This document shows positions 22,115 to 43,146 of a stretch of 64,000 nt of DNA, piece after piece. The DNA comes from Flavihumibacter soli. Lineage in GTDB: Bacteria > Bacteroidota > Bacteroidia > Sphingobacteriales > Sphingobacteriaceae. Every line of letters starts with the position of its first letter. Position 1 is the first letter of the stretch. The stretch lies in assembly GCF_010692725.1 (NCBI RefSeq), contig NZ_JAAFZB010000095.1:558001-622000 (forward strand). The letters are read 5' to 3'. The translations under genes were made by a program, and so were the position numbers. The notes under the pieces are model-generated. The model saw nothing but the letters and a program-made list of their open reading frames with translations, made no database searches and was not told the DNA's origin.

Positions 22115-22537
22115 TTATTGGAGATAATTCTTTTTTTCGAGATAGGACTGCAGGATGATCGTCGCCGAAATGGTGTCGACCCTTTCCTTGTTCTGCCGGT
22201 CTGATTTCTTGAATCCGCTCTGCGCGATCGTTGCTGCCGCCATCTTCGAAGTAAAGCGTTCGTCAATCGTTTCTACCGGGATGGTCGGGAAGGTCTTCTT
22301 CAGAAGCGTGATGAACCCCTTTACATGCTGGGCAGACTGCGAGGGCGTTCCATCCATCTGCTTCGGTTCGCCAACAACAAATAATTCAACAGGCTCGGTT
22401 AGCAGGAATTTTTTAAGGAACTCCAGTACATCTTTCGGGTGAACAGTGTCCAGGCCCGTTGCAATGATCTGCAGGGGATCGGTAACGGCTACGCCGATAC
22501 GTTTGGTTCCATAATCGAAGGCAAGGATGCGGGGCAT
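22115..22537 (-). CDS. ruvX: RuvX/YqgF Holliday-junction-resolvase-like nuclease
   Basis: The 140-residue RNase H-fold protein has ILAFDYGTKRIGVAVTD at the N-terminus (catalytic Asp), FVVGEPKQMDG and ETIDERFTSKMA (catalytic Glu), and a C-terminal VDTISATIILQSYLE (Asp). It belongs to the family implicated in 16S rRNA pre-processing and recombination. It is first in an operon with recQ. The first ATG gives a normal length. A promoter element lies 41 nt upstream. Confidence 0.95.
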   Translation of the reverse strand: MPRILAFDYGTKRIGVAVTDPLQIIATGLDTVHPKDVLEFLKKFLLTEPVELFVVGEPKQMDGTPSQSAQHVKGFITLLKKTFPTIPVETIDERFTSKMAAATIAQSGFKKSDRQNKERVDTISATIILQSYLEKKNYLQ

Positions 22538-22586: not shown

Positions 22587-23023
22587 GGATTGCGGATCGG
22601 TAGAATATTTTTTATTCAGCAATGGCCTCTGATAATACGAAGGTCGGAAATGATCAAATGGATTACTTGTTAGTCCACAACCTGCTGGTGAACTGCTGCG
22701 AAAGGAAAAGCCGGTTTCGAAACTCACCCGTCCGTAATTGTGGCCGCCCTCGGAAAGGTCAGGTAGCGGACTCCTTCGACGATCCTTAGATCAAACGGCT
22801 TTTGGTCTTAGGATGGTCGAACCATTCCCGAACCAGACCCAGGGAAGGGCGGTTACTTTTAGTTGGACTTTCGATCCAAATGTCTATAGTGTCGTTAAAT
22901 TTTTGAATCATCATTAGGCTGTGATTTCATTGGCGGCTAATGTTTACATTGCAATAGCTGCACCACTTTGATTGAAATTGCCTGCGGCTAGTGCTAAAGT
23001 ATAAAAAGCAGCTCACACAGTGT
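22587..23023. other. Gene-poor region at the left edge of the accessory segment
   Basis: No intact gene is seen. A 42-residue minus-strand frame (22786-22914, starting MMIQKFNDTIDIWIESP) looks protein-like. It seems to continue in another frame after a shift (IVEGVRYLTFPRAATITDG, then TGA), as a decayed gene would. The family is not recognised. No terminal repeats of an insertion element were found. Confidence 0.3.
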
Positions 23024-23464
23024 ATGAAAACAACACAGATCCAGAACATCTCCCGGATAATTCTTGGCCTGTTCATGGTTTTCGCCGGTGTCGGCCACCT
23101 GACGTTCCAGCGGCAGGAGTTCCTGGCTCAGGTACCCGCATGGTTGCCGAACGATCCGGGATTTATGGACTTTATCGTTCTATCGTCCGGGATAGTGGAG
23201 ATCCTGCTGGGGCTTTCGATGATATTTCTCACCAGGTACAAAATCATAGTCGGCATTGTGCTGGCGCTGTTCTTTGTGCTGATCTTCCCGGGAAATATTT
23301 CGCAATATGTGAATGGGATCAATGCCTTCGGCCTGGATACAGACCAGAAAAGGCTGATCAGGTTGTTCTTTCAGCCGGTCCTGATCCTGTGGGCACTATG
23401 GTCGACCGGGGCTTATGCTTATTTGCTTGAGCGATCTAAAGGCCGAAGGAAGGCCAGGACCTAA
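23024..23464 (+). CDS. DoxX-like small membrane protein
   Basis: The 146-residue protein has four hydrophobic segments: IILGLFMVFAGVGHLTF, DFIVLSSGIVEILLGLSMIFL, KIIVGIVLALFFVLIFPG and LFFQPVLILWALWSTGAYAY. The first, with GxxHL, and the overall layout fit DoxX/DoxD-like integral membrane proteins whose function is mostly unknown. The frame stays open to a GTG at 22991, but the ATG at 23024 (MKTTQIQNISRII) is a better start. It stands alone between decayed sequences. Confidence 0.75.
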   Translation: MKTTQIQNISRIILGLFMVFAGVGHLTFQRQEFLAQVPAWLPNDPGFMDFIVLSSGIVEILLGLSMIFLTRYKIIVGIVLALFFVLIFPGNISQYVNGINAFGLDTDQKRLIRLFFQPVLILWALWSTGAYAYLLERSKGRRKART

Positions 23465-24253: not shown

Positions 24254-26785
24254 ATGGCAAAAAGAATAAATAAAGCTACAAAGACTACTTCTCAAAAACC
24301 AATTGAGCAGTATGAACATAAAGACAAGCAACGGGTAAACAACCCTCCTGTTGGACTGGTAGATGCACACACCGACAACGGTGGCTATAAAAAGAAAACT
24401 TACCAATACGACCCACACCTTGACCCACAATTGCAATGGGCAGGAAAAGCCGAGCATACCAGTTTTGATGTGCCTACTGTGAGTTTACATGTGCATGAAC
24501 GCATAGACCCGAGACGCATTATTGAAACTGTAAAAAAGGAAGAGGAAGCCCCAACGCAAATGAGTTTGTTTGAAGAACAAAAGAAACCTTTGCGTGAAGC
24601 CATTGAATTTTACAAGCACAAGGAAAATTGGAGTAACCGACTAATTGCAGGTGACAGCTTATTGGTAATGAACAGCCTTTTAGAAAAAGAAGGCATGGGC
24701 GGTAAAGTGCAAATGGTGTTTTTTGACCCACCTTATGGAATAAGTTATAAAAGCAACTTTCAAGCATTCGTAAATAAACGAGATGTAAAAGAAAAGGATG
24801 AAGATTTGACATCCGAGCCTGAGATGCTCAAAGCATTTAGAGATACTTGGGAATTAGGAATTCATTCTTACTTGACATACATAAGAGACAGAATGTTATT
24901 GGCTAAAGAGTTATTAGATGAAAGTGGTTCAGTTTTCATTCAAATTAGTGACGAGAATGTTCACTTAATAAGAAGTATACTCGATGAAGTATTTGACCGT
25001 AAAAATGAAGTTGCAACAATTGTTTGGAAGAAAGGAACTCCAGTATCCAAGACTATCAGAAATTCATTTAATTATTTGCTTTGGTATGCTAAAGACAAGG
25101 AAAAGGTTAAATCCAGAAAAATATTTTTTGAAAGAACTGGTATTGAAGGAACAACTGAAGACCCCAAGAAATTAGCTCTTTGGGGAGAATTTCAAAATGG
25201 TGAAGTCAGAACTTTAACAACAGATGAAAAAAGAAACATACTTCTAACAAGAGAAAAAGCGAATGTCTTTAGGGTAGATAAAATTATTGAACGAGGGGAC
25301 GATGAAGAGAAGCAATTTGAGTTTGAGTTTGAAGGTCAAAAATATACACCTGACAAAGGATATCAATGGAGAGGAGATAAAATCCAAATGCAAAGATTGC
25401 TTGAGGCAAACAGAATCTTAAAAACAAAGGATGGTTTCGGTTTCAAATTTTACATAACTGACTATCCTATCGTTGAGCTAACTAATTTTTGGGATGACAC
25501 AGCCGGCAATATATCTGACATGATTTATGTGGTTCAAACAAATGAAAAAATCATTCAGCGATGCTTAATGATGACAACCGACCCAGGAGACTTAACGCTT
25601 GACATAACTTGTGGAAGTGGAACTACGGCTTATGTTTCCGAACAATTTGGAAGAAGGTGGATTACCTGTGATACTTCAAGAGTAGCTTTAACTTTAGCAA
25701 AGCAAAGATTAATGACAGCCAATTTTGATTACTATGAATTGGCTTATCCAAATGAAGGAATTGGTAGTGGTTTCAAATACAATAAGGTTCCGCATATAAC
25801 CTTGAAATCTATTGCAAATAATGAAAATCCCCCTGAGGAAACTTTAGTGGATAAACCAATTCCTGACAATAAACGACAAAGGGTAACAGGCCCTTTCACA
25901 TTGGAAGCAGTTCCTGCACCTGTTGCCAAATCATTTGAAGAAGTTGAAGCAGACACCAACATTGAAGCAGATATTTCAATTTCAAGAAGTGGTGAAACAT
26001 TAAGGCAAGATGAATGGAGAAATGAATTGCTCCGTTCAGGTGTAAGAGCCAAAGGAGGAAAACTAATTGAATTTACAAGAGTTGAACCGCTAAGCGGAAC
26101 AAGATTTCTGCAAGCAGAAGCAGAAACAAAAGAAGACAACCCGAAACGGGTTGTAGTTTGTTTTGGCCCTGAGCATGCTCCGCTTGAGCAGCGAATGGTT
26201 GAGTTGGCTTTAGAAGAAGCAAGAACGCTGAAACCTAAACCTGAAATTATTCTGTTCTGTGCATTCCATTTCGATTCGGAAGCAAGAAAAGACATTGAAG
26301 AAACCAACTGGCCGGGCATTACGCTTTTAGAAGCTCAAATGAATGCCGACTTGTTGACAGATGATTTAAAAAAGAAACGCAGCAGCAACGAAAGTTTTTG
26401 GCTCATTGGTCAGCCCGATGTTCAAATCAAAGAAATCAAATCAGGTGACGACAAAGGCAAATACACCGTTGAAGTAAACGGCTTTGATTATTACAATCCA
26501 AAAACAGGAACGGTTGACAGTGGTGGTAAAGGCGACATTGCCATGTGGATGCTTGACCATGACTATGATGGAAGAAGTTTATTCCCATCACAAGTATTTT
26601 TCCCAATGGCAGGAGCCAAAGAAGGTTGGGCAACTTTAGCCAAAAACCTGAGAGCCGAAATTGACGAAGAAAAAATTGAAGCTTTTGGCGGAACGGTTTC
26701 GCTTCCGTTCACCGCAGGTAAAAATGTGGCGGTAAAAATTATTGACGCAAGAGGAATTGAATCATTAAAAATTATCAGATTGTAA
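24254..26785 (+). CDS. mod: Type III restriction-modification DNA methyltransferase (Mod)
   Basis: The 843-residue protein has the motif order of beta-class N6-adenine methyltransferases: DPPY at 158-161 (VFFDPPYGISYKSNF), a long target-recognition region, then the SAM-binding motif DITCGSGTTAYVSEQFG at about 450. The N-terminal ~110 residues and the C-terminal ~330 residues, including an extended region around VVVCFGPEHAPLEQRMVEL, go beyond the core. Mod recognises the site and modifies one strand; it is also needed for cleavage. The res gene starts 6 bp downstream. Base use is markedly A-rich compared with the flanking core genes, a sign of transfer. Confidence 0.93.
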   Translation: MAKRINKATKTTSQKPIEQYEHKDKQRVNNPPVGLVDAHTDNGGYKKKTYQYDPHLDPQLQWAGKAEHTSFDVPTVSLHVHERIDPRRIIETVKKEEEAPTQMSLFEEQKKPLREAIEFYKHKENWSNRLIAGDSLLVMNSLLEKEGMGGKVQMVFFDPPYGISYKSNFQAFVNKRDVKEKDEDLTSEPEMLKAFRDTWELGIHSYLTYIRDRMLLAKELLDESGSVFIQISDENVHLIRSILDEVFDRKNEVATIVWKKGTPVSKTIRNSFNYLLWYAKDKEKVKSRKIFFERTGIEGTTEDPKKLALWGEFQNGEVRTLTTDEKRNILLTREKANVFRVDKIIERGDDEEKQFEFEFEGQKYTPDKGYQWRGDKIQMQRLLEANRILKTKDGFGFKFYITDYPIVELTNFWDDTAGNISDMIYVVQTNEKIIQRCLMMTTDPGDLTLDITCGSGTTAYVSEQFGRRWITCDTSRVALTLAKQRLMTANFDYYELAYPNEGIGSGFKYNKVPHITLKSIANNENPPEETLVDKPIPDNKRQRVTGPFTLEAVPAPVAKSFEEVEADTNIEADISISRSGETLRQDEWRNELLRSGVRAKGGKLIEFTRVEPLSGTRFLQAEAETKEDNPKRVVVCFGPEHAPLEQRMVELALEEARTLKPKPEIILFCAFHFDSEARKDIEETNWPGITLLEAQMNADLLTDDLKKKRSSNESFWLIGQPDVQIKEIKSGDDKGKYTVEVNGFDYYNPKTGTVDSGGKGDIAMWMLDHDYDGRSLFPSQVFFPMAGAKEGWATLAKNLRAEIDEEKIEAFGGTVSLPFTAGKNVAVKIIDARGIESLKIIRL

Positions 26786-26791
26786 TTCGAT

Positions 26792-29700
26792 ATGAAGAAT
26801 ATAAACAAGCTGATAATTAATTCCCCTTACGTTGAACCGCAACAGTATTGGGAATATATCAGAGACACAAGAGAATTTGTTTTGCAGGAAGGTCGCAGAC
26901 CCGCAGGTTATGTAGTGGCTTCCGAAAGTTCAAAATCGTTTGACGACCCAGGCACATTCATTGAAATAGATTTAGTCAATACCATTCGCCCAAGAATCAA
27001 GAAATGGCGTGAAGATGGTTATCCAGGAGTTACAGGCATTACCAAACGGCTTCTACAACATTGGCGAGACCCGGAAGAAAGAAAAGACCGCAGGTTTTTC
27101 TTTTGCCAGTTAGAAGCCATTGAAACATTAATTTGGTTAACTGAAGCACCCGAAGCCGACAAAACGGGCATTGAAATTCCGAGTGATGGCGGAGAGTTTA
27201 GCCGTTGGTGCAACAAAATGGCAACAGGTTCGGGCAAAACCATTGTAATGAGCCAACTCATTGCATGGAATGTATTGAATAAAGTAGCCAACGGAAAAGA
27301 CACCCGATTTTCAAAAAATGTATTGATAGTTGCGCCGGGCTTAACAGTTCGCAATCGCCTCTCTGTTCTCAATCCTACCGACCCTGAAAATTATTATGAA
27401 GAATTCAATATTGTGCCTTCGGGTTTGATGGATTCTTTGCGACAAGGCAAAATAAAAATCATCAACTGGCATGGTTTGGCATGGCAAACAGAAGAAAAAA
27501 TTGCCAAGAAAAAATCTGTTGACAAGCGTGGAGCAAAAAGCGATGAAGCCTATGTAAAAGAAGTGTTGGGCGACATGACCAACGCCGCAAACATTATTGT
27601 CATCAATGACGAAGCACACCATGCATGGCGCGTTCCTGCCGAAAGTAAAATCAAAGGTGTAAAGAAGGAAGATATTGAAGAAAGCACCGTTTGGGTTGGA
27701 GGTTTAGACCGCATCAACAGAGCGAGAGGAATTTTGCGCTGTTTCGATTTGTCGGCAACACCATTTGCGCCAAGCGGGAAAAAAGCAAGCGAAGAAGCCT
27801 TGTTCCCTTGGATAGTTTCAGACTTTGGTTTGAATGATGCCATTGAAGCAGGTTTGGTAAAAACCCCGAGAGTTGTAGTTCGTGACGATGGAAACGTAGA
27901 TAAAGATTTGCGTTCACGGTTGTATCACATCTACATGGACGAAACGGTGAAAGACGACATCAACCAAAAAGTAGATGAATCAACACCACTCCCCGACCTT
28001 ATCAGAAATGCTTATTTGCTTTTGGGCAAAGACTGGCAAGCCACTAAAGACGATTGGGTAAAGGCAGGATATAAAATTCCGCCTGTGATGATTACAGTTG
28101 CCAATACTACGTTCACATCAGCAAGAATAAAATATTCATTCGACAAAGATGCTTTCAATCTTTCAGTTGCAGGTTTGGGTGATTTGTGCAATCCTGAAAA
28201 GACCTTGCAGATTGACAGCAGTATTTTACAAAAAGCAGAAGCCGAAAGCGAAGAAGTAGAACTTGTAGAAGTAGAAGAAACCGAAGACGATTCGGAAGAT
28301 GCACCAAAAGAAAAGAAGCTCACCAAAAAACAACAAGCAGAACTTTTAAGAAGAACGGTTGACACGGTTGGCAAAATTGGAGAACCGGGAGAACAGATTC
28401 AAAATGTAATTTCAGTCGGAATGTTGAGTGAGGGCTGGGATGCAAAAACCGTAACACATATTATGGGCTTACGGGCATTCAGCAGTCAGTTACTTTGCGA
28501 ACAAGTTGTTGGTAGAGGTTTGCGGAGAACTTCGTATGATGTGGGAGAAGATGGGTTGTTTGAACCTGAATATGTAAATATTTTCGGTGTTCCTTTTACA
28601 TTCCTTCCTCACGAAGGCGGAACAGATGGCCCACCGCCACCGCCACCCAAGCCAAAGACAGAGATTAAACCTGTTAAGGAAAAAGCAGAACACGAAATCA
28701 CTTTCCCAAATGTGGTGAGGATTGACCATGTGTATAAACCGCAACTGGCTTTGAATATTGGGAAAGTAAAAACTCTTGAACTTGACCCTTACGAATCCAT
28801 TACCGAAGCAGAACTGGCTGCCATCATTGCAGGCAAACCAAATCCGGCAGCACTTTCAGAAATTGACTTGAAAGAAATTGGAGAACGGTTCAGACTTCAA
28901 TCTATCATTTTCAGAATTGCATCTACCATTTACAATTCAGAGAAAAAACCTGATTGGAAAGGAAGCAAAGAAACATTCCTGATTCAACTGATTAGCATTA
29001 TTGAGAAGTTTATCTATTCGAACAAAGTCGTTATCAAAAATCCTTTATTCAATCAGGACGAAGCAAGGAAAAGAATTTTGATAATGCTGAACATGAACAA
29101 AGTTGTGCAGCATATTTGGAATGAAATACGAGCCGTTAACACAGAAGCCCTAACACCAGTATTTGACAAAGAAAATCCAATCCGTTCAACAACAGACATC
29201 AGAACCTGGTGGACAAGTAAACCCAACGAAGCATTTGACAAGACACACATCAACTTTGTTGTGGTTGACAGTAAATGGGAATACTTAGAAGCAAAGACCA
29301 TCAATGAATCCAATGTTGTAAAATCATTCGTTAAAAACGACCATTTAAATTTTGTGGTTTACTATAATTACCAAGGAGTTGTAAGACGCTTTTTCCCTGA
29401 TTTCCTTGTAAAACTTAAGACAGGTGAAAACCTCATTATCGAAACGAAAGGCCAGGACAATGAACAAAATAAAACTAAGAGAGCATATCTCGATGAATGG
29501 TGCCGAGCTATAAATCAACACGGAGGTTTTGGTAAATGGAGTTGGTCAGTTTCGTTTAATCCTAATGACCTTGACCAAATCTTAGAAAATTCGGCATTGA
29601 GTTATATGGGTCATATTTTTGTTCAAACGGACAATTATAATATTGCCGAAAGGATATTTAATGCAACAATTACTTTTTTTGAAACGACAGGTTTTGAGAT

Positions 29701-30106
29701 TTCGGAGGAAGGTAGAATTAAACAAGGTTCATGGTTCAAAGAGAAAGTAGTTTACAAAATAAAGAACATTTTTAGAAGCAAAGAAGCTAAAGAAATTTTT
29801 GACAAGACAAAAAAGGCAATTGAACTTCAGCAAATAGAAGTGCATCAATCACAAGCAAACAAGAACAATGCAGAAGCAGCAGCAGCTTTGTTGGAAGCCG
29901 TAAAAGACGTTCCATTCTTTGCTACAAAAATGGGATCGTTGATTATCATCAAGACGACAGACCAAGACGGAAAAGCGCAAGTAATTACAAGACTTTTGAC
30001 AACAGAGGAGACAATCTTCTATGACCAGAATCCTACATTACTAAATAACCCAATGGAATTATTGGACAGTTTAAACGATAAATGCAATATTAAACGACTG
30101 AATTAG
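26792..30106 (+). CDS. res: Type III restriction enzyme subunit (Res)
   Basis: The 1104-residue SF2 translocase-nuclease has Walker A MATGSGKT at 143-150, Walker B NDEAHHAW at about 271-278 and motif VI VVGRGLRRTSYD. A low-complexity acidic Glu-rich linker lies near 480-505, and a Pro run lies near 612. The C-terminal PD-(D/E)xK-type nuclease is FFPDFLVKL ... LIIETKGQ at about 866-890. With Mod it forms the Mod2Res complexes that cleave DNA between two unmodified head-to-head sites after ATP-driven sliding. Both catalytic regions look intact. A-rich like mod. Confidence 0.93.
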   Translation: MKNINKLIINSPYVEPQQYWEYIRDTREFVLQEGRRPAGYVVASESSKSFDDPGTFIEIDLVNTIRPRIKKWREDGYPGVTGITKRLLQHWRDPEERKDRRFFFCQLEAIETLIWLTEAPEADKTGIEIPSDGGEFSRWCNKMATGSGKTIVMSQLIAWNVLNKVANGKDTRFSKNVLIVAPGLTVRNRLSVLNPTDPENYYEEFNIVPSGLMDSLRQGKIKIINWHGLAWQTEEKIAKKKSVDKRGAKSDEAYVKEVLGDMTNAANIIVINDEAHHAWRVPAESKIKGVKKEDIEESTVWVGGLDRINRARGILRCFDLSATPFAPSGKKASEEALFPWIVSDFGLNDAIEAGLVKTPRVVVRDDGNVDKDLRSRLYHIYMDETVKDDINQKVDESTPLPDLIRNAYLLLGKDWQATKDDWVKAGYKIPPVMITVANTTFTSARIKYSFDKDAFNLSVAGLGDLCNPEKTLQIDSSILQKAEAESEEVELVEVEETEDDSEDAPKEKKLTKKQQAELLRRTVDTVGKIGEPGEQIQNVISVGMLSEGWDAKTVTHIMGLRAFSSQLLCEQVVGRGLRRTSYDVGEDGLFEPEYVNIFGVPFTFLPHEGGTDGPPPPPPKPKTEIKPVKEKAEHEITFPNVVRIDHVYKPQLALNIGKVKTLELDPYESITEAELAAIIAGKPNPAALSEIDLKEIGERFRLQSIIFRIASTIYNSEKKPDWKGSKETFLIQLISIIEKFIYSNKVVIKNPLFNQDEARKRILIMLNMNKVVQHIWNEIRAVNTEALTPVFDKENPIRSTTDIRTWWTSKPNEAFDKTHINFVVVDSKWEYLEAKTINESNVVKSFVKNDHLNFVVYYNYQGVVRRFFPDFLVKLKTGENLIIETKGQDNEQNKTKRAYLDEWCRAINQHGGFGKWSWSVSFNPNDLDQILENSALSYMGHIFVQTDNYNIAERIFNATITFFETTGFEISEEGRIKQGSWFKEKVVYKIKNIFRSKEAKEIFDKTKKAIELQQIEVHQSQANKNNAEAAAALLEAVKDVPFFATKMGSLIIIKTTDQDGKAQVITRLLTTEETIFYDQNPTLLNNPMELLDSLNDKCNIKRLN

Positions 30107-30276
30107 CCTACGCTAATAGAGGGCAGATGTGATACTTACAACCTATAACAATGGAAAGGGAATTAATGCTAGAAAAAAGGTGTAACCCTATTTCTTAATC
30201 ATTGTACCTAAATCAACTATAAACGTGTTTTGCAAAGGTGAAAACTTGCAGAATACTCCAGTTACCAGAAAAGACC

Positions 30277-30801
30277 ATGACACAACGAGAGCAAGTCGAA
30301 CTTACATTCAACATTATAAATTCAATCGGATCATTAGCAACTTTTGGGGCATTTATACTTTTATTTTTTAAAGATAAGGACAAACAAAAACAGATTGAGA
30401 AATTGAACTCAATAGCTAAAATCCTGGGCGAACAAAATCACAACTTGAAAAAACAAGTTAATTTAAGTGTTGCTCCAATTTTATGGCTTAATGGTGCTGG
30501 AACAACGGATAACACTGAATTAAAAATTGACTTAAATAATAAAGGTGAAAGAGCAATTTTAGATGATTTAACATTGAAATCAGGGGATTTCCAACTTCAT
30601 AGTAAATCCGTTCCTTGGGACTTAGAAAAAGATGACCACCGTTTTATTTTTGCAAGATATACAGGAAATAAATCGATTAATGAAAGTGAATATGAAATAG
30701 AAGTTTTATATCATGATAACTTAAATAATAAATTCCGATTGGAAATCGCCGGAAAGGGGTCTCATGTCAAAATCAAGTCAAACCTTGAATGTCTATCATA
30801 A
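30277..30801 (+). CDS. Membrane-anchored protein of unknown function next to the type III R-M system
   Basis: The 174-residue protein has one N-terminal membrane segment (IINSIGSLATFGAFILLFF, about 10-28). A Lys-rich stop-transfer segment and a short coiled coil (KQKQIEKLNSIAKILGEQNHNLKKQV) follow. A soluble beta-rich domain of ~115 residues starts NLSVAPILWLNGAGTTDN. No family was recognised. The ATG at 30277 is preferred to a GTG at 30238 because the latter adds only polar residues. It shares the A-rich composition of mod and res and lies 170 bp downstream. An accessory role in the R-M island is possible but only inferred. Confidence 0.6.
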   Translation: MTQREQVELTFNIINSIGSLATFGAFILLFFKDKDKQKQIEKLNSIAKILGEQNHNLKKQVNLSVAPILWLNGAGTTDNTELKIDLNNKGERAILDDLTLKSGDFQLHSKSVPWDLEKDDHRFIFARYTGNKSINESEYEIEVLYHDNLNNKFRLEIAGKGSHVKIKSNLECLS

Positions 30802-30931
30802 AAATAAGCTCTAGAACTGTAGTCATTTTACAGCTTTAAGCATTGTCGTTTGCATTATTACAAATACTAATGGGTTTGCTAACTTGGAATCCGTTGCATG
30901 CAGCCTGCAAAAGGAGGTACTGTTTTTTTAA

Positions 30932-31086
30932 ATTTTGCAGTCAATGCAATTAAGTGATATAGTCGTCCAAACGGAAGTTAAACAACATTAATTCAGACAC
31001 TTTTAGAGAACGGGGTAAGTCATGCCCAATTTTCTCTTCGCCCGGAAGGAAGTGGTCGCTCAGCGCTGCCTAAGAATTATGCCCAT
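30932..31086 (+). pseudogene. Decayed duplicate of the holB promoter and 5' end
   Basis: This stretch aligns with 33924-34079, the start of the intact holB, at about 80 % identity by hand count. The ATGs at 30944 and 33936 correspond. The frame is broken by a TAA at codon 16 (CAT TAA against CAT TTA) and by a one-base deletion shortly after. Many differences before and after the shift are synonymous third-position changes (CAG/CAA, AAG/AAA, TTG/TTA, AGC/AGT, GGC/GGT). The copy therefore diverged as a working gene before it was broken. Only the first ~50 codons are present, in direct orientation to holB. Confidence 0.88.
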
Positions 31087-31137
31087 TAGGATCTCGTGTT
31101 TTCTGGTTATGAATTTCAAATCAGCTGGACTTTAAAC

Positions 31138-31791
31138 TTAACCCATCAATTCCTTCATTAGTTTATCAAAAGCTTCTTTCAGCTCTTTTAATTCCTGTTC
31201 TAAACTGGCCACTCTGTTTTCCAAATCGCTAACCGATCTTCGGGCCGGCTCTTCAGGCAATTCCTCTTCTTCGAAATCGGGTGTCCCGCCTAAGAGGTGC
31301 ATGTACCTAACTTCTTTTTGTCCTGGCTTGCGCGGCATTTGAACAACATATGGCAGGTCACCTCCGGCTAGTTTTTCTAATACTTCCTGTAGCTCCTCCA
31401 AGGTTTCAAATTCATACAAACGGCCAGAGTTCGTGTTCAACTCGCCCGGTGTTTGCGGACCCCGTAACAGCAACAGGCAAATAAGAGCCACTTCTGACGG
31501 CAATACCGGAAAGGCAATAGCAAAATTGTGTTTGTATTTTACCACCCTGCTCGAGCCACCGCTCGCAGTAGATATCAGCCCCCTCTTCTTTAATGAATTA
31601 AGCGCAATAACAACTGTTTCTTCATCATAGTTCACTACCGGCTTACGCGATGTTTTCTGATTACACGCCGCAGTAAGTGCGTTTAAAGTCATCGGATAAT
31701 AATCAGGAGTAGTTTTACTTTTCTCCATTAAAGCGCCAAGAACTCGTTGTTCCTCTACATCCAGTACTGGCAAGGTTAGTGCATCGTCCAT
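31138..31791 (-). CDS. yceH: YceH/DUF480 family protein
   Basis: The 217-residue protein consists of two winged-helix domains typical of YceH (LPVLDVEEQRVLGALMEKS, TTPDYYPMTLNALTAACNQK, SEVALICLLLLRGPQTPGEL). A C-terminal acidic linker and coiled coil (LENRVASLEQELKELKEAFD) follow. The family is widespread, with unclear molecular function; the fold suggests DNA or protein binding. It is an isolated minus-strand gene between the broken holB copy and the glycosyltransferase gene. Confidence 0.9.
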   Translation of the reverse strand: MDDALTLPVLDVEEQRVLGALMEKSKTTPDYYPMTLNALTAACNQKTSRKPVVNYDEETVVIALNSLKKRGLISTASGGSSRVVKYKHNFAIAFPVLPSEVALICLLLLRGPQTPGELNTNSGRLYEFETLEELQEVLEKLAGGDLPYVVQMPRKPGQKEVRYMHLLGGTPDFEEEELPEEPARRSVSDLENRVASLEQELKELKEAFDKLMKELMG

Positions 31792-32186
31792 AAGAAGGCG
31801 AATATAAAATTAATTCAGACTGACGGGTGTTTCTTTATCGCATCCGTTCAAATTACTCCTGTATTTAAATTCTTGCTGCGTTGACCGTGGAGGTCAACCA
31901 CCTCCGTCTCCGGATAGAGAACAACCACCTCCGCCCTTCGGGCACCTCCGCCAGCGGAGGACAAATGACGGTGCTACCGGGAAAGTCGTTTCCATAAGGA
32001 CTGTAAATGATATAAAACCTTCTATAAGGCTACTAGTACCCTTATCCGCAATGCCGCACCTAAAGCATTGTCCTAGGCTGGCGGAGGTGGCTCCCTTAAC
32101 TAATTAGGTATCACGTTCGCCTTCAGCGCATCTCAGCGCACATCTGCCCGGCTATCATGTAAATACTTTTTCCTACTTTGCAGTCC
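31792..32186. repeat. Intergenic region rich in CACCTCCG-type repeats
   Basis: The word CACCTCCG occurs repeatedly between 31898 and 31950. CACCTCCGCCAGC at 31943-31955 recurs as its exact reverse complement at 32077-32089 (GCTGGCGGAGGTG), 120 bp away. A shorter palindrome, CCTCCGCCAGCGGAGG, lies at 31945-31960. The pattern looks like extragenic palindromic repeats rather than coding DNA. No gene is seen. Confidence 0.6.
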
Positions 32187-33767
32187 ATGCAGGTTATTGA
32201 GATTGCTCAGCAAAAGAATAAGAAACATTTGACTGAGAGCAGCCTACCAATGACCATGCAGGCCCGGCTGATGATCCTTGCATTCTGCATGGTAAAGCTG
32301 ACACTTCATTTACTTGCCGACAGCCATTCAGGGTTCCAGGGCGACGAATTACTGCATATTGAGACCGGCAAGCATTTAGCTTTCGGGTATATGGAGTTTC
32401 CGCCCATGATCGGGATATTGGCTTTTATCCAGAATCTGTTCGGCAGTAGTTCCGTATATGTGCATCGCCTCTTTGCGCACATCGCAAGTATCCTGATTGT
32501 CATCTTTGTTGCAAAAACAACAATTGAGTTAGGCGGAAAAAATAAGGCTATCTTTTTGGCGCTATTGTGCATAATTATAGCACCCGCTTTCGGTCGCTCG
32601 CAACAACTTTTTCAGCCGGTAGTTTTCAGCCAGTTATTCTGGGTGTTGAGTTTTTACCAACTCACAAGGTTTGTTAAATATCTTGATAAAAGGAGTTTGT
32701 GGTATCTAACAGCTTTCGTTGTTTTGGCCTGTTCGATGAAATACGATGCCTTGTTCTTCGTTGTTGGTTTATCCGCCTTGCTCTTTTTCAAAACAACACG
32801 CCAAGCCCTTCTGCAGCTACATTTTTGGCAAAATTCAATTGTAGTTATCCTGCTATTGCTTCCCAATTTGATCTGGCAATATGTTAACTCTTTTCCGGTG
32901 CTGCAGATGATGGGCAGGCTTTATGAAACACAATTAGACAACCTTTCCCGCGCAGGAAATTTAGGGCAATTGCTTGTCGACGTAAATCCTGTCTGCAGTA
33001 TGCTGATCATTCCTGCGGCACTCATCTATATTTTCAGAAATAGCAGAGCAATAAGCTTCCCCTTAGGAATGTCTATTATTTTATCTGTTGCTTTTTTATC
33101 TTTTGCAAAAGGAAAAGCCTATTATTTCTACCCGATCGTTTTGACAATTCTTCCTTTCGGCGCCATCTTCTGGGAACAGATTATTTTGCAGAGGCGGAAA
33201 TGGATAATGTATCCGATCACCTTTCTGTTGGTAATGGGTGCTGTTTTAATTCCTTTCGGAATGCCGGTTTATTCTTTCGATCGTTATCTCGCAAAAGTTT
33301 ATCAGTATGAAAAGAAAGATATTGAAGGTGGAAGATATGGCGTCAAATACGATGAGTATTATACCCGGGAAAAGTGGAGAGAAACCATGCAGCAATTAAA
33401 GTCGGTTTACGACAGTTTGCCTGAGAGTGAAAAACCCGGCTGTATAATTTGGGGGAAACATTACGCGCAGGCTGGTGCAGTAAATTTGTTTGGAGCAGAT
33501 CACCATTTGCCGGAAGCGTTCTCTTATCATGGGAGTTTTTACAGTTGGGCACCTGCAGGTCGGATGCCAAATACAACAATAGCTTTAAGCTATAGGGTTG
33601 GCGACTTTTTTAGTCCTTATTTTGACGATGTGAAATTGGTAAGAACCATTTACAATCCTTACGCAGATACCGAAGAAGAACTTTATCAACGAATTTATGT
33701 CTGCAAAAGGCCAAAGCAAGACTTCGAGAAAATGAAAGAACTTTTTAAGACAAGAATATTTGAGTAA
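32187..33767 (+). CDS. GT39/ArnT-like membrane glycosyltransferase
   Basis: The 526-residue protein has about ten hydrophobic segments. Near the start it has DSHSGFQGDELLHIETGKHLAFGYMEFPPM, where FQGDELLH carries the acidic residue of the first periplasmic loop in GT39/PMT/ArnT-type enzymes. These use polyprenyl-phosphate sugars to glycosylate lipids or proteins outside the inner membrane; the acceptor here is unknown. The first 17 residues (MQVIEIAQQKNKKHLTE) resemble the start of DNA polymerase III delta' (MQFSDIVGQQEVKQHLVQ), and the sequence upstream of the ATG is also similar. A downstream start such as MTMQARLMI is an alternative. Confidence 0.82.
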   Translation: MQVIEIAQQKNKKHLTESSLPMTMQARLMILAFCMVKLTLHLLADSHSGFQGDELLHIETGKHLAFGYMEFPPMIGILAFIQNLFGSSSVYVHRLFAHIASILIVIFVAKTTIELGGKNKAIFLALLCIIIAPAFGRSQQLFQPVVFSQLFWVLSFYQLTRFVKYLDKRSLWYLTAFVVLACSMKYDALFFVVGLSALLFFKTTRQALLQLHFWQNSIVVILLLLPNLIWQYVNSFPVLQMMGRLYETQLDNLSRAGNLGQLLVDVNPVCSMLIIPAALIYIFRNSRAISFPLGMSIILSVAFLSFAKGKAYYFYPIVLTILPFGAIFWEQIILQRRKWIMYPITFLLVMGAVLIPFGMPVYSFDRYLAKVYQYEKKDIEGGRYGVKYDEYYTREKWRETMQQLKSVYDSLPESEKPGCIIWGKHYAQAGAVNLFGADHHLPEAFSYHGSFYSWAPAGRMPNTTIALSYRVGDFFSPYFDDVKLVRTIYNPYADTEEELYQRIYVCKRPKQDFEKMKELFKTRIFE

Positions 33768-33935
33768 AACAGCCAGTATCGTAGAATAAATTGTGGCTGG
33801 AAGTTATGCACGCAACTGTAAATCGCTATTTTACTTTTTCTTAGATCCTTTACCCTTCCAGCCATCTGCTAAACTAATCACAGGGCAAACTAATCAACTT
33901 CTCAAAAAACAATCTATTTTCCTATTTTGCAAGCC

Positions 33936-35081
33936 ATGCAATTCAGTGATATAGTCGGCCAGCAAGAAGTTAAGCAGCATTTAGTTCAAACGGTTTTGGA
34001 GAACAGGGTAAGTCATGCCCAGTTGTTTCTCGGCCCGGAAGGAAGCGGCAGTTTAGCACTGGCCCTCGCCTATGCGCAGTTTATTTCCTGCCAGGACAGG
34101 CGTGAGCAGGATAGCTGCGGGGACTGTTCTTCCTGCCGGAAGTATAAGAAGCTGATCCATCCGGACCTGCATTTTTCCTACCCTTTCTTTGCGAAGCACA
34201 AGGAAGATACGGCACTGAAGTTTCTTCCCGAATGGCGGGAAGCATTCCTGTCAAACCCCTACCTCGGCCTGGATGAATGGCGCAACCAACTGGACGCCGA
34301 AAACAAACAGGCTAACATCAATATAGCCGAGTGTCACCAGATCATTTCGAAGCTTAGTTTGAAGCCCTTCGAAGCGGAATACAAGGTCCTGATCATGTGG
34401 TTGCCGGAGTATCTCGACAAAGAAGGTAACACCCTTCTGAAGATCATCGAAGAACCGCCTCAGAAAACCTTGTTCCTGCTGGTCGCTCAAAACCAGGATC
34501 AGATCCTGAATACCATCCTGTCAAGAACGCAGCTGGTAAAGATCCCCCGTCTCCAGGATGAAGAGATATCCGGTTTTCTTATCGAGCGGAAAGGGGTTTC
34601 AGACGCTAAGGCCAGGCAGATCGCTTATCTGAGCGATGGCAATCTGCAGGCAGCAAACGAATTTCTGACCGGGGAAGAAAATGATAATCTGCTCATGTTC
34701 CGGGAATGGCTGCAGATAACCTATGCGGATGCAGGCACCAAGATCATCGACTTCACCGAGCGTGCTGCCAAGCTGGGTCGTGAGAATCAAAAGAACTTCC
34801 TGCGTTTTGGGATCAACCTTATACGTGAGAGTGTGCTCATTCTTTCGGGTGCTGGTAACCTCGTGCATCTGCCGCAGGCAGAACTCGAATTTATCAGTAA
34901 ATTCAGCGGCGCAATCGATCTGGCAAAGGCGGAGGCTATCATCGTCGAACTCGAAAAAGCCCACTATCATATCGAGCGCAACGCCAATCCTAAAATTTTA
35001 TTTTTAGATGTATCTTTGCACTTGGTAAAAATTTTAAAGTTTAATACGCTCCCGTTAGGGACTCAATATATATACTCTTAA
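33936..35081 (+). CDS. holB: DNA polymerase III subunit delta'
   Basis: The 381-residue clamp-loader AAA+ subunit begins MQFSDIVGQQEVKQHLV, with RVSHAQLFLGPEGSGSLALALAYAQ as the P-loop region. The Walker A lysine is missing (GPEGSGS), as in delta' subunits that do not bind ATP. A zinc-finger-like Cys set follows (C...CGDCSSC), then NTLLKIIEEPPQKTLFLLV and the SRT-type arginine-finger region NTILSRTQ. The frame stays open to a TTG at 33927, but the ATG at 33936 matches the broken upstream copy and the family. ricT starts 2 bp after its stop, so the two are one operon. Confidence 0.92.
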   Translation: MQFSDIVGQQEVKQHLVQTVLENRVSHAQLFLGPEGSGSLALALAYAQFISCQDRREQDSCGDCSSCRKYKKLIHPDLHFSYPFFAKHKEDTALKFLPEWREAFLSNPYLGLDEWRNQLDAENKQANINIAECHQIISKLSLKPFEAEYKVLIMWLPEYLDKEGNTLLKIIEEPPQKTLFLLVAQNQDQILNTILSRTQLVKIPRLQDEEISGFLIERKGVSDAKARQIAYLSDGNLQAANEFLTGEENDNLLMFREWLQITYADAGTKIIDFTERAAKLGRENQKNFLRFGINLIRESVLILSGAGNLVHLPQAELEFISKFSGAIDLAKAEAIIVELEKAHYHIERNANPKILFLDVSLHLVKILKFNTLPLGTQYIYS

Positions 35082-37239: not shown

Positions 37240-40122
37240 ATGGAAAAACTCTACCAAAGACTTTTCTTCGTTTTAATACTTTGCCTCCCTGCTTCGCAAC
37301 TGGTTGCGCAGAGTTTAACTGGAAAAATTACCGATCAGTCCGGCATTGCCGTATCAGGTGCTAGCCTCCACATACAAGGATTAACTTCGACTGTCAGCAA
37401 TTCGACAGGTGAATACTTCTTTAAGCTTCCTTCAAAAGGCAGCTATCGCGTAAAGATCACTTCATCCTTACATCAGCCCCAAAGCCAGGATGTGTTTGTA
37501 AAGGGCAATAAGGTCAGCAATTTTGTATTACAGCCGCTTGGCTCGGTTCGCGAAGAGAAATCAGTTACAGGCTCCCGCAGGCTTGTTCCTGTGTCGAATT
37601 ATGAATCGTCAACGCCCGTTGATATCATCACTTCTGCCGATCTGAAAATGTTCGCTCAAAAAGATGTGACGCAGATACTGAATTATGCCATGCAGTCTTT
37701 CAGCTCAAACCGGCAGTCCATTGCCGGTGGAACCGATCATATCGACCCTATTTCACTCAGCGGCCTTGGTCCCGACCAGGTACTGATATTGGTGAATGGA
37801 AAGCGGCGGCATTCAACCGCGCTGGTCAATATAGATGGTACCGTAGGCCGGGGCGCAGCAGGGACAGACATGAATTCAATTCCTGTATCCTCTATCGAAC
37901 GTATAGAAATATTGCGTTCAGGCGCATCTGCGCAATACGGATCAGATGCTGTTGCCGGCGCTATAAATATTATACTGAAGAGCAATTCGCCGTTTAATAT
38001 GTCAATGTCTTTCGGTCAGACTGCAAGCAATACCCTTGGCCGGAATTTCAACGATGGAAAGACTTTCCAGGTGGATTACAGCGAAGGGATCGACCTTGCC
38101 GGACGTGGCTCACTTAATTTTTCAGGGCAGTACCTCTACAGGGGAGCAACTGATCGGAGCGGCCTGGACACCCGGCCCCTGCTCTATTCGGCTTTGCCTA
38201 AAAAGAAGGATTGTGAATGCGACGAAGCTTTCCAGCAACGGTATGGCGAACTCAAATCAGCAGATGATCAGCTGGCCCTTGCATCAGGCCTGAGCCGGGA
38301 CAACATGCGCGTGGGTAATGCAGAATCGGCAAATGGCGGTTTTCTTGTTAATGGCCAGTTCTCATTGCTAAAAAACGCAGAGCTTTATCTCACGGCAGGT
38401 TATACTCTTAAAGCAGGAGAAGCAGCAGGATTTTCCCGCCTCCCCAGCGAAACCACGCAGATCGATCTGAGTATGTATCCGAACGGTTATTTGCCCTTAA
38501 TAAATAGCGGTATAACGGATCTGTCTGTTGCTTCAGGCCTAAGAGGGCGAATTGCAGGATGGAACTATGACCTAAGCCATATAACCGGTAAGAACAAAAT
38601 AGACTTTCATATCTCACGTTCATTAAATGCTTCCCTGCCACTGGGTACCAGCCCTAACAATTTTAACGCCGGGGAACTTTCCTTCAGGCAGAATACAAGT
38701 AATCTGGACATAAGCCGAAGGTTTGCATTCAGCGGACCCTTCAAGTCGGTGAACGCCGCATTTGGAGCAGAGTACAGGTCGGACAACTATGAGATTGGGA
38801 AAGGTGAAGAATTATCCTATTCATTCGGGCAACCCTCTAAAGGAATACCAGGCAGGAAAATGGGTTCGCAATACGCACAAGCAGGCGCTCAGGTCTTTCA
38901 GGGATTTACTCCCGGAAACGCACTTAGCCAGTCAAGAAATAATAGAGCAGTTTACGCAGATTTTGAGACAGAAGTTGGATCAAGGGTTCGGTTGGGATTA
39001 GCCGGTCGATTGGAAAACTATAGTGATTTCGGTTCCAACTTTTCCTACAAATCAACAGGCAGATATAATTTTTACAAAGATTATTCGGTTCGGGCTGCTT
39101 ATTCGACAGGTTTCAAGGCTCCTTCTTTGCACCAGCGTTATTTTAATAACGAGAGCAGTTCCATTATAAACGGCTTGCCTTCAAGGACGCTGATAGCAAA
39201 CAACGAAAGTTCGATTGTTAATCAGTTTGGGATCGGTTCACTCAGGCCAGAACTTTCTAATTCTTACAGCTTTGGTCTGACGGGTAAGATAACAAAGAAC
39301 ATCTCAATAGCTGCGGATGCTTACCAGATCGATATCGATGACCGGATCGTTTTGTCCGGTGCGTATAGTCGCGAACGCGATTCAAATGGAGCAATCCTCC
39401 CCGGCGGTGATGTTAACCAGATACTGAACAGAGTTGATCCGGTCGGATATATTAATAGTGTTCAATTCTTTGCGAACGCTGTATCTACCAGAACCCGCGG
39501 ACTGGATCTGCTGGTTTCAGATCGTTTCAAGCTCCGAAGCCCGGGTCAGAGTATTACTCTATCAGCGTCACTGAATCTCAATAAGACGACTGCCGGTAAT
39601 ATTTATGTTTCCGATCAGATAAGCAATAACAGCACTCTGACCACGAAGTTATTTGACCGCCAGGAACGTTCAAGGATTGAATCCGCTTTGCCGAACAGCA
39701 AGGTCAATCTTACAGCCAATTTTGCGGCTAAGAACTGGGGAATGGCATTAAGAACGGTTCGTTTTGGGGAGGTAGCTTATAACAATCCATTCAACCCTGC
39801 ATTTCCCGAAGTTAACACACCTCTGATCCCCGATCAGACCTTTGCTGCCAAATGGGTGACCGATCTAACGATGAATTACACCTTTACAAATGAATTAAAC
39901 ATTGCATTTGGAGTTAGTAACCTACTTGACGTGTATCCCGACACGCTATATATGGATCCTAACAATCGACAGGATAATTTGTCGGGTGATCTTCTTCAGA
40001 ATTATACCCAAAGTGCAAGTCGCGATCATACGGCGAACGGACGTATCCCGTACAGCAGCAATGTAACACAGTTCGGCTTCAATGGCCGGCACATATTTGG
40101 CAAACTTACTTACAGTCTTTAA
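37240..40122 (+). CDS. TonB-dependent receptor with CarboxypepD_reg domain (first of a tandem pair)
   Basis: The 960-residue protein has a signal peptide (to about VAQ24). A carboxypeptidase-regulatory-like domain follows (about 25-105). The TonB plug has DVTQILNYAMQSFSSNRQS, DQVLILVNGKRRHSTALVNI and IEILRSGASAQYGSDAVAGA. A 22-strand-type barrel closes with NGRHIFGKLTYSL. It imports an unknown ligand across the outer membrane. There is no SusD partner, so it is a classical TBDR rather than SusC. The next gene is a paralog over the whole length. A terminator at 40157 separates the two. Confidence 0.93.
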   Translation: MEKLYQRLFFVLILCLPASQLVAQSLTGKITDQSGIAVSGASLHIQGLTSTVSNSTGEYFFKLPSKGSYRVKITSSLHQPQSQDVFVKGNKVSNFVLQPLGSVREEKSVTGSRRLVPVSNYESSTPVDIITSADLKMFAQKDVTQILNYAMQSFSSNRQSIAGGTDHIDPISLSGLGPDQVLILVNGKRRHSTALVNIDGTVGRGAAGTDMNSIPVSSIERIEILRSGASAQYGSDAVAGAINIILKSNSPFNMSMSFGQTASNTLGRNFNDGKTFQVDYSEGIDLAGRGSLNFSGQYLYRGATDRSGLDTRPLLYSALPKKKDCECDEAFQQRYGELKSADDQLALASGLSRDNMRVGNAESANGGFLVNGQFSLLKNAELYLTAGYTLKAGEAAGFSRLPSETTQIDLSMYPNGYLPLINSGITDLSVASGLRGRIAGWNYDLSHITGKNKIDFHISRSLNASLPLGTSPNNFNAGELSFRQNTSNLDISRRFAFSGPFKSVNAAFGAEYRSDNYEIGKGEELSYSFGQPSKGIPGRKMGSQYAQAGAQVFQGFTPGNALSQSRNNRAVYADFETEVGSRVRLGLAGRLENYSDFGSNFSYKSTGRYNFYKDYSVRAAYSTGFKAPSLHQRYFNNESSSIINGLPSRTLIANNESSIVNQFGIGSLRPELSNSYSFGLTGKITKNISIAADAYQIDIDDRIVLSGAYSRERDSNGAILPGGDVNQILNRVDPVGYINSVQFFANAVSTRTRGLDLLVSDRFKLRSPGQSITLSASLNLNKTTAGNIYVSDQISNNSTLTTKLFDRQERSRIESALPNSKVNLTANFAAKNWGMALRTVRFGEVAYNNPFNPAFPEVNTPLIPDQTFAAKWVTDLTMNYTFTNELNIAFGVSNLLDVYPDTLYMDPNNRQDNLSGDLLQNYTQSASRDHTANGRIPYSSNVTQFGFNGRHIFGKLTYSL

Positions 40123-40156
40123 AAAAGTCAGTCGTTAAGACGTTTCAAAGCAGAGC

Positions 40157-40180
40157 CCCCGGGTTAGTCCCCGGGGTTTT
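40157..40180 (+). terminator. Terminator after the first TBDR
   Basis: CCCCGGG (40157-40163) pairs with CCCGGGG (40170-40176) around a 6-nt loop, followed by TTTTGTTGTTT. It lies 35 bp after the stop codon. Confidence 0.8.
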
Positions 40181-40266
40181 GTTGTTTAAAGTAAGAAGCA
40201 AAATTGCGTAATTAGTTCTTTCATAATGGATTAACTATTCTTAAATTGAAGTTAAAATCATTTATT

Positions 40267-43146
40267 ATGAAAAGTCACTTACTTAAAGGCCTGCTGGTTA
40301 TGGTATTATGCCTTCCGGGATTTGCGGGCGTCGCGCAGGTATTAAAAGGCAAAGTCGTTGATTCAAAAGGTAATCAGCTCCAGGGTGTGAGCGTGCAGGT
40401 TCAGGGCCAGGCCTTAGGTACTTCGACCGACCAAAATGGCGAATATGCATTAAAATTACCTAACGAAGGATCTTTCCAGGTCAGGGTTTCATTCGTCGGA
40501 TATGTGACAATAAATGAAACCGTTGCTGTAGGGAGTGAGACAACGATTCGCAATTTTACGCTGCGTGATGCAGATTCTTCACTCGATGAAGTGATTATTA
40601 TAGGCTCCCGGTCTACAGTTCCGCGTACCAATGTAGAAACCGCTGTTCCCGTAGACGTTATATCCGCACGGGACGTAAAGAATTTCGCGCAGACGGATGT
40701 TACGCAGATATTGAACTATGTGGCTCCCTCATTCAGCTCTAATCGCCAAACTGTCTCTGACGGTACGGATCATATCGACCCGGCATCATTAAGAGGTCTC
40801 GGACCTGATCAGGCCCTGGTTTTGGTAAACGGGAAGAGGCGACATACGACGGCGCTTGTAAATATTAACGGCACCTTCGGCCGCGGGACTGTCGGTACGG
40901 ACATGAATTCCATACCGGTAGCCGCAATAGACCGCATCGAGGTTCTTCGGGACGGCGCAGCAGCACAGTATGGCTCGGACGCCATTGCCGGCGTTATCAA
41001 TATCATTCTTAAGGAAGTTGCCCCGCTGAGTGTTTCGGCTACCTACGGTCAAACGGTAACTGAGGCATTAGGAAGAAACTTTAGTGACGGCGAAACTTTT
41101 CAGGTTGATCTTAGCAAGGGCTTCAATCTTAGTAACAAGGGCTTTGTCAGTTTCGGTGCCCAGTATCTTGACCGTGGCGCTACAAACCGCGGCGGGCCTG
41201 ATACCCGGCCACTTTTATATACGTCTCTGCCTTCCAAAGGCGCAAATGAAACGGAAGAAGCCTTCCAGGCAAGATATGCGGATCTGAAAGCTGCTGATGA
41301 CGCCCGCGCTCAGTCTGAGGGACTTGACCGCAATAATATGCGGGTCGGCAACTCGGATTCGGATAACCTTGGTTACTTTGTTAACGGTGAATATCAGGTC
41401 GGCCGAAGCAGCCAGGTGTATCTGAATCACGGATACACCAACAAGGCCGGCGAGGCTGCGGGCTTCTATCGTCTGCCTTCGCAGGCTTCGCAGATAGACG
41501 TTACCATTTACCCGAATGGATTTCTGCCATTAATAACGACCGATATCAACGATGTTTCAGTTTCTGCAGGTATCAAGGGAACGCTTGGTCAGTGGAACTA
41601 TGACCTGAGTAATACATTTGGGCAGAATTCTATAGAATTTGATATAAAAAATACGTTGAATGCCTCCCTGCCTATCGGCACCAGCCCAACGCAGTTCTAT
41701 GCCGGAAAACTAAGGTTCGGTCAGAATACGACCAACCTGGATGTGTCGACGAAGTTTGCTTTTGGCGCTGGTAGTAATACGCTGAACCTAGCCTTTGGGG
41801 CGGAGCACAGGAGTGATAGCTATGAGATCAGTGAGGGAGAAGAGTTGTCCTATTCCTTCGGACAGCCCTCTGCCGGTATTCCCGGCCGGATGATAGGAAC
41901 TTCGTTTACCGCTGCGGGCGCACAGGTTTTTCCAGGCTTTACACCTGCGAACGCATTGGAGAAGTCAAGGAACAACACAGGTTTTTATCTCGATGTTGAG
42001 GGAGAAGTTGGACCGCGTGTATTGCTCAGTGCAGCCGGCCGTTACGAAGACTACAGTGATTTCGGTAACAACTTCTCTTATAAATTTACCGGAAGGGTGA
42101 AATTGATTGATGAGCTTGCGGTTCGCGGAGCAATAGCCTCGGGCTTCAGGGCACCTTCCTTGCACCAGCGTTACTTCAACAATGAAAGTACCCAGTTCGT
42201 TCAGGGCTTGCCTACCCAGGTGCTAACTGTAAACAATGATCACGACGTTGTACGCCAGTTTGGGGTGGGTCCCCTTAAACCTGAGTTATCGCACTCTTAC
42301 AGTGTCGGACTGGCAGGCCGGGTAGCCGAGAAGCTAACATTCACGGTGGATGCCTACCAGATAAATATTGACGACAGGATCGTGTTTTCAAGTCAGTATA
42401 CCAGAGAAAGGGATGCCAGCGGAAATCAAATTCCCGGTGGAACGGTGAATCAAATATTGAATACGGTTGACCCGAACGGGGTTATTAATAGTGTTCAATT
42501 CTTTACAAATGCCATAAAGACAAAGACAAAGGGGCTGGATATCGTCTTAAGCGACCGGTTTGATCTCGGCACAGCGGGAAGACGGATCACCCTTACGGCC
42601 GCAGCTAACTTTAACGACACCAAGGTGGATGAGGTTCAAGGATCAGACAAGATTGAAAGTGATCCGGCGTTAAAAGCAAAACTGTTTGACCGGCTGGAAC
42701 GCTCCAGGTTCGAGACATCTATTCCCAAAAACAAATACTCGATTACTGCCCACTATGGAGCTGAGAAGTTCGGCTTGTTAGTCAGAACGGTAAGATTTGG
42801 TGAAGTGACGTCGCTAAACGCAACCGATCCATCTACCGCAAATTTGCCGCCTGAAATGGACCAGACTTATTCACCCAGGTGGATCACCGACCTTACCGTT
42901 AATTACAATATCAGGAAGGATATCAATATCGCAGTGGGCGCAAATAATCTGTTCGATGTATATCCTGACCAGACCTACATTGACCCAAGGAACAATCAGG
43001 ATAATTTAAGCGGTGTTTCGACAACCAACTATACCGGTGGTCGCGATAATACATCCAATGGCCGGTTCATGTACAGTCGTGCTGTTCCCCAGTTTGGATA
43101 CAATGGACGATATGTCTTCGGTAAACTAACTTTTACCTTATTATGA
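40267..43146 (+). CDS. TonB-dependent receptor with CarboxypepD_reg domain (second of a tandem pair)
   Basis: The 959-residue protein starts at the ATG at 40267 (signal peptide MKSHLLKGLLVMVLCLPGFAG). The frame is open to a TTG at 40246, but that only extends the signal. It has the same domain order as its upstream neighbour: regulatory-like beta domain, plug (DVTQILNYVAPSFSSNRQT, DQALVLVNGKRRHTTALVNI, IEVLRDGAAAQYGSDAIAGV) and barrel ending GRYVFGKLTFTLL. The two proteins align along their full length, with the same unusual QRY/ARY helix (EEAFQARYADLKAADDARA) in the barrel. Tandem duplication with separate transcription units; the ligand is unknown. Confidence 0.93.
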   Translation: MKSHLLKGLLVMVLCLPGFAGVAQVLKGKVVDSKGNQLQGVSVQVQGQALGTSTDQNGEYALKLPNEGSFQVRVSFVGYVTINETVAVGSETTIRNFTLRDADSSLDEVIIIGSRSTVPRTNVETAVPVDVISARDVKNFAQTDVTQILNYVAPSFSSNRQTVSDGTDHIDPASLRGLGPDQALVLVNGKRRHTTALVNINGTFGRGTVGTDMNSIPVAAIDRIEVLRDGAAAQYGSDAIAGVINIILKEVAPLSVSATYGQTVTEALGRNFSDGETFQVDLSKGFNLSNKGFVSFGAQYLDRGATNRGGPDTRPLLYTSLPSKGANETEEAFQARYADLKAADDARAQSEGLDRNNMRVGNSDSDNLGYFVNGEYQVGRSSQVYLNHGYTNKAGEAAGFYRLPSQASQIDVTIYPNGFLPLITTDINDVSVSAGIKGTLGQWNYDLSNTFGQNSIEFDIKNTLNASLPIGTSPTQFYAGKLRFGQNTTNLDVSTKFAFGAGSNTLNLAFGAEHRSDSYEISEGEELSYSFGQPSAGIPGRMIGTSFTAAGAQVFPGFTPANALEKSRNNTGFYLDVEGEVGPRVLLSAAGRYEDYSDFGNNFSYKFTGRVKLIDELAVRGAIASGFRAPSLHQRYFNNESTQFVQGLPTQVLTVNNDHDVVRQFGVGPLKPELSHSYSVGLAGRVAEKLTFTVDAYQINIDDRIVFSSQYTRERDASGNQIPGGTVNQILNTVDPNGVINSVQFFTNAIKTKTKGLDIVLSDRFDLGTAGRRITLTAAANFNDTKVDEVQGSDKIESDPALKAKLFDRLERSRFETSIPKNKYSITAHYGAEKFGLLVRTVRFGEVTSLNATDPSTANLPPEMDQTYSPRWITDLTVNYNIRKDINIAVGANNLFDVYPDQTYIDPRNNQDNLSGVSTTNYTGGRDNTSNGRFMYSRAVPQFGYNGRYVFGKLTFTLL

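Follow-up and report, generated by a model that had tools for sequence, protein, structure and literature searches.

Here we describe a 64,000-nucleotide stretch of DNA from Flavihumibacter soli (RefSeq assembly GCF_010692725.1, contig NZ_JAAFZB010000095.1, positions 558,001 to 622,000), referred to as the window and numbered from its first letter, in which an apparently acquired glycosyltransferase gene adjoins holB and seems, from its sequence, to carry a captured holB start. A second, broken copy of the holB start lies farther upstream. We regard local duplication of the holB start, with promoter and start capture by the acquired transferase, as the best explanation of this arrangement, and assign it a probability of roughly 0.55.

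The original prediction described a partial direct copy of the holB 5′ end, about 80% identical and 2,992 bp away from the gene, with a TAA at codon 16 and a one-base deletion; all of these features were borne out. Local alignment of 30925-31068 with 33917-34061 gave 113 identical positions out of 144 (78.5%) and one single-base gap, with a score of 159 compared with a maximum of 35 in 1000 shuffles. The broken copy comprises the promoter and 5′ end of holB in direct orientation; the intact gene follows 2,992-2,993 bp downstream, and a repeat search splits the similarity into two blocks of 78% and 79%. The TAA falls right at the one-base deletion; the two should not be counted as independent lesions. 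A profile built from the holB starts of 20 genomes of the genus lengthened the broken copy to 30923-31087 (72.1 bits; E 1.2e-19 genome-wide; intact holB, 125.9 bits) and, beyond what had been predicted, revealed that the 5′ end of the glycosyltransferase gene, at 32165-32234, is a partial copy as well (18.5 bits, E 0.005). In the search of the 4.44 Mb genome, for which 150 of 1509 first-look candidates were scored, these three were the matches with E no higher than 10, and all lie within 3.2 kb. When 30 kb of the window was scanned unfiltered, the third match had an E of 3.8e-5 and a fourth reached merely 5.4 bits.

The region at 32165-32234 resembles the holB promoter together with about 16-18 codons. 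Aligned with holB, the transferase start region scores 55; the best unrelated segment among 16,824 distinct ATG-anchored segments scores 38, and the segments that score higher are holB starts or overlap with those or with the broken copy. Shuffling (5000 replicates) reaches 35, and the upstream DNA of 21 transferase homologues reaches 24. The promoter core, the start codon, the reading frame, the place in the genome and the missing ancestry of the extension, taken together, strongly indicate that the transferase start is homologous to the holB start. The leader GCAGTC is common to the broken copy (30938-30943) and the transferase start (32181-32186); that of holB differs. These two copies may be sisters of each other.

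The missing ancestry was evident from a scan of 84,980 species genomes, which yielded 22 loci homologous to the transferase. Matches of these homologues begin at residues 15-37, nine of them at exactly residue 22, and none of the 22 covers residues 1-14; the first 21 codons (32187-32249) are without counterpart. At the DNA level, the Flavobacterium fryxellicola alignment starts at 32249, one base before the ATG that corresponds to the start of the homologues, and that of Flavobacterium flabelliforme at 32271; the alignment to a Bacteroidetes metagenome-assembled genome extends further upstream through gapped sequence that is not significant by itself. These three hold the best homologues (76-77% identical). 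The best match among 251 genomes of the family is 59% identical, matches in the genus are 27-31% identical, and the F. soli genome has a single transferase of this type (other matches 31%). We also considered that the 21-residue extension might be ancestral upstream DNA of the transferase, and rejected this on alignments to the DNA upstream of the homologues. Twenty-one such regions were compared, with starts shifted by hand where the homologue match did not begin at residue 22; locus L121 (32%, matching from residue 37) was left out. The region upstream of L102 first seemed to align with the extension; its score was 23 (p 0.14).

The origin of the broken copy was assessed by comparison with the native gene and its relatives. 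Over 126 coding bases the two copies differ at 25 positions, which were polarised using the four nearest congeners as outgroups. Twelve changes fall on the broken copy, distributed 4/4/4 over codon positions 1, 2 and 3, and nine of these are nonsynonymous and three synonymous; four fall on holB, three of them at third positions; the other nine, eight of them third-position, are assignable to neither copy. With 9 of 12 assignable changes altering the protein and an even spread over codon positions, the broken copy has the marks of a pseudogene that decayed after duplication, contrary to the suggestion that it diverged while functional. Its coding part is 80% identical to the native holB and at most 72% to that of any relative. 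Furthermore, a maximum-likelihood tree of 21 starts places it as sister to the native holB (support 96/94; 94/95 when the transferase start is added), with end branches of 0 for holB and 0.43 for the broken copy, and codon 37 is an AGY serine in both copies and TCN in all 19 congeners, a two-base difference. These data indicate that the broken copy derives from this lineage or from an unsampled close sister. The idea that it came from a related species is thus not upheld beyond that last case, since nearly all of the change lies on the branch of the fragment, and on the tree grouping and the shared AGY codon we reject a foreign origin.

We propose that the holB start region (promoter core, short leader, ATG and first codons) was duplicated at least twice in this lineage, in direct orientation and just upstream of holB. 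One duplicate, with about 48 codons kept, is dead and has decayed freely; the other would have been joined in frame to the horizontally acquired glycosyltransferase, which would thereby have gained a resident promoter core, a leader, a start codon and a 21-residue extension, some 16-18 residues of which look holB-derived. The likeliest route, we infer, is that the foreign gene landed upstream of holB first, that a tandem duplication by illegitimate recombination, from the start of the foreign gene to inside holB, then set a holB start before the foreign gene, and that the other tandem copy was subsequently lost. The captured start would be expected to drive expression of the transferase, and selection would presumably have favoured the capture.

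Several observations weigh against this reading. The coding part of the transferase start alone scores 29, compared with a maximum of 27 in 137 promoter-bearing controls, a set whose promoter filter missed holB-type starts and which was superseded by the comparison with 16,824 segments. Five other genomes have unrelated profile matches that score 19.3-21.2 bits. The tree program flags the broken copy as a long branch, making its placement less sure, and the tree does not place the transferase start firmly. A second transferase copy is missing from the genome, and there is no transferase remnant to the left of the broken copy; old duplication events may lose the tandem copy. Neither holB nor the fused start has an A at position -3. 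The flanks upstream of the promoter cores are also without clear kinship: with the promoter core removed, comparisons with native flanks gave p 0.105-0.73 (near-4: broken copy 0.105, holB 0.175, transferase 0.495), and the flank pairs gave p 0.22 for holB with the transferase, 0.57 for holB with the broken copy and 0.02 for the transferase with the broken copy, a weak similarity in one of three comparisons. We dropped the idea that intact holB is the sole copy keeping its native flank, as without the promoter core neither copy matches significantly; likewise, the claim that the native gene had been restored on one side finds no footing, the DNA upstream of the promoter core being too diverged to tell which flank is native.

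The surroundings of the three starts were compared across the genus. In 17 of the 19 congeners ruvX lies divergently upstream of holB within the flank analysed; in the flanks analysed for G006 and G010 no ruvX was found. The gap between the two genes is variable in size within the genus: 125-316 bp in six congeners, 629-804 bp in two, 1.64-1.85 kb in eight and 3.4 kb in one, compared with 11.4 kb in F. soli, where similarity to the corresponding interval of G007 extends to about 22605. Here the interval holds, in order, a MauE-like frame, a type III restriction-modification (R-M) pair, a 187-residue frame, the broken start, yceH, an inverted-repeat element and the fused transferase, followed by holB (Table 1). 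G+C content (GC) is 0.382 for the mod gene, 0.398 for res, 0.317 for the 187-residue frame, 0.451 for yceH and 0.414 for the transferase; holB, ruvX and the MauE-like frame have 0.484, 0.504 and 0.502. The proposal that foreign cargo gathered at holB therefore stands in part: the interval took up extra DNA, the R-M and transferase genes are low in GC, and the transferase has flavobacterial homologues. The reading of the broken copy as a foreign remnant of integration into holB was not supported. In eight of the 19 congeners the gap holds one frame of 475-494 amino acids, which may be a PLP (pyridoxal phosphate)-dependent decarboxylase; that of G002 holds several short frames instead.

Table 1. 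Features of the ruvX-holB interval in the window
Feature	Coordinates	Strand	Basis and remarks
ruvX	22115..22537	-	Pfam RuvX 4.8e-38; left edge of the enlarged interval
Small membrane-protein frame, weakly MauE-like	22991..23464	+	Pfam MauE E 0.0011, under the curated cut-off; GC 0.502; may be native or inserted
Type III-like R-M pair: methyltransferase (24254-26785) and BPTD_3080-family restriction enzyme (26792-30106)	24254..30106	+	Pfam, PADLOC, NCBIfam 1106 bits
Frame of 187 amino acids, GC 0.317	30238..30801	+	No family match in Pfam, PADLOC, NCBIfam
Broken holB start: promoter core, ATG 30944, about 48 codons, one-base deletion with TAA at codon 16	30923..31087	+	
yceH (DUF480)	31138..31791	-	Pfam 2.1e-60
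Dispersed inverted-repeat element, one copy	31925..32090	.	Arms 31943-31964/32068-32089; aligned with 11 other paired elements
Putative captured start: holB-like promoter core and start before the transferase, ATG 32187	32165..32249	+	Aligned part 32165-32234, in frame, one 3-base gap
PMT_2-type glycosyltransferase body, apparently acquired	32250..33767	+	Pfam PMT_2 5.1e-11; ATG 32250 corresponds to the start of the flavobacterial homologues
Intact holB with promoter core, ATG 33936; probable source sequence	33914..35081	+	Pfam DNA_pol3_delta2 6.9e-41

Among the neighbouring features, holB is open and complete, and the gene was found in all 20 genomes of the genus; yceH is patchily distributed (8 of 20). 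The element at 31925-32090, also seen at loci L091-L097, has inverted CACCTCCGCCAGCGGAGG arms, often with 120-135 bp between them. With at most one mismatch, its core occurs 41 times in the F. soli genome, 19 times in G010, three times in G007 and once in G009, and was absent from the 16 other genomes of the genus. Short frames near some copies are presumably DUF559-like, and two adjacent similar frames of 960 and 966 amino acids (37240-43146) we take to be TonB-dependent-receptor-like.

The recurrence of displaced holB starts was surveyed in 301 genomes of the family, the F. soli genome included, in a wide search in which weak matches may be lost. The profile matched 300 of the 301, with more than one match in seven, F. 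soli among them, and gave one match in each of the 19 congeners. Second matches in five genomes (G063, G167, G174, G225 and G226) were rejected as chance, lying inside unrelated reading frames. In G085, a short contig (L085, G085:C107) ends in a second holB start, which follows two frames without assigned function; this may be contamination or an assembly effect in a genome that is 84% complete. No displaced holB start beside holB was found among the 300 other family genomes, 299 of which have a holB match. The ruvX-holB interval is thus variable, without displaced holB starts recurring in it.

These results bear directly on the original prediction, in which the 5′ end of holB was an integration or recombination hotspot, an element had entered there and the broken copy was its displaced end. 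The variable ruvX-holB gap, largest in F. soli, and the low-GC cargo are what such a model would lead one to expect, but a recurrent hotspot at the holB start was rejected on the single profile matches in relatives, and no recombinase turned up with Pfam, PADLOC and NCBIfam in the scanned frames of the insert, a set that did not include every very short frame. In addition, a displaced end should adjoin the old flank, yet 8.4 kb of DNA including the R-M pair separates the broken copy from ruvX, and the cargo itself is joined to a second partial start. We consider this model very improbable. Somewhat less so, though still improbable, is that the broken copy is the sole holB duplicate and that the transferase start came to resemble holB through convergence on a promoter type common in Bacteroidetes, with chance likeness in the first codons. 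The narrow margin of the coding part over the controls and the genome-wide E of 0.005 would agree with convergence; the score of promoter and codons together, well clear of every unrelated segment, does not, and neither do the position of the only further match in the genome, next to holB, and the extension that has no counterpart in 22 homologous loci.

A more serious, if still unlikely, alternative is homology-facilitated illegitimate recombination, in which DNA of a close relative carrying cargo beside a holB start was taken up and joined by homology at one end and by an illegitimate junction at the other, so that partial holB starts remained next to the cargo. The outcome would look much like that of local duplication. 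Low-GC cargo does adjoin both holB-start copies, a very close donor would yield the same tree, and PMC5361080 proposes a similar process for displaced gene parts in Vibrio while itself calling it rare. This route calls for two such events and for a donor no more distant than the native holB, and of donor flanks there is no trace. Local duplication with start capture therefore remains the explanation that we favour, and the kind of event it invokes (local duplication, decay and start capture) is ordinary; the locus is an instructive natural example of it.

A familiar parallel is the element SXT, which integrates at the 5′ end of prfC and supplies a new start. The two loci share two copies of a gene 5′ end with cargo between them, but unlike SXT-prfC the holB locus has no recombinase in the scanned frames and no recurrence in relatives, its broken copy stands away from the old flank, and its cargo is joined to one more copy of the start. 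Closer are cases of promoter capture. In laboratory evolution, a tandem duplication placed a resident promoter and a hybrid rnk-citG frame before citT (PMC5918244), and transferred genes became active by promoter capture after tandem duplication through illegitimate recombination (PMC11111574); promoter-capture deletions occur as well (PMC5526668). Both duplication cases resemble the present one in that a resident promoter and gene 5′ end came to stand before another gene with the donor gene intact, and rnk-citG also shares a hybrid frame with the fused transferase. Unlike these laboratory examples, the holB locus belongs to a natural genome, is apparently old and has lost the tandem copy; the putative captured start forms the N-terminus of an acquired protein, and a second, dead copy lies nearby. 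Similarly, the Vibrio type VI secretion system immunity arrays (PMC5361080) gather cargo beside partial gene copies; there, a conserved upstream anchor is accompanied by orphaned downstream parts, whereas here the partial copies are 5′ ends of an unrelated essential gene. Searches of open-licence texts, judged by titles and the starts of abstracts, gave no report of holB as an integration site of genomic islands or of this locus.

Promoter capture of transferred genes has been shown in laboratory evolution, and old natural cases are hard to recognise from sequence. At this locus the donor start, its dead duplicate and the start now joined to an acquired gene appear to be preserved side by side, and it looks like a natural case in which an incoming gene took over the on-switch of a resident essential replication gene. 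It is also a caution against reading every partial direct copy of a housekeeping gene as the mark of an integration site. According to PMC6847099, Bacteroidetes are without Shine-Dalgarno sequences, initiation depends on the bases just upstream of the start codon, and in Flavobacterium an A at -3 favours it; capture of a whole start region could therefore help foreign genes in this group. A more speculative and on balance doubtful extension is that the holB start is a "start cassette" donated repeatedly to genes arriving between ruvX and holB, that the broken copy is left over from an earlier capture since abandoned, and that capture of whole starts (promoter, leader and first codons) is general in Bacteroidetes. 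If the captured start drives the transferase, the locus would provide a simple model, open to testing, of how foreign genes come to be expressed in Bacteroidetes.

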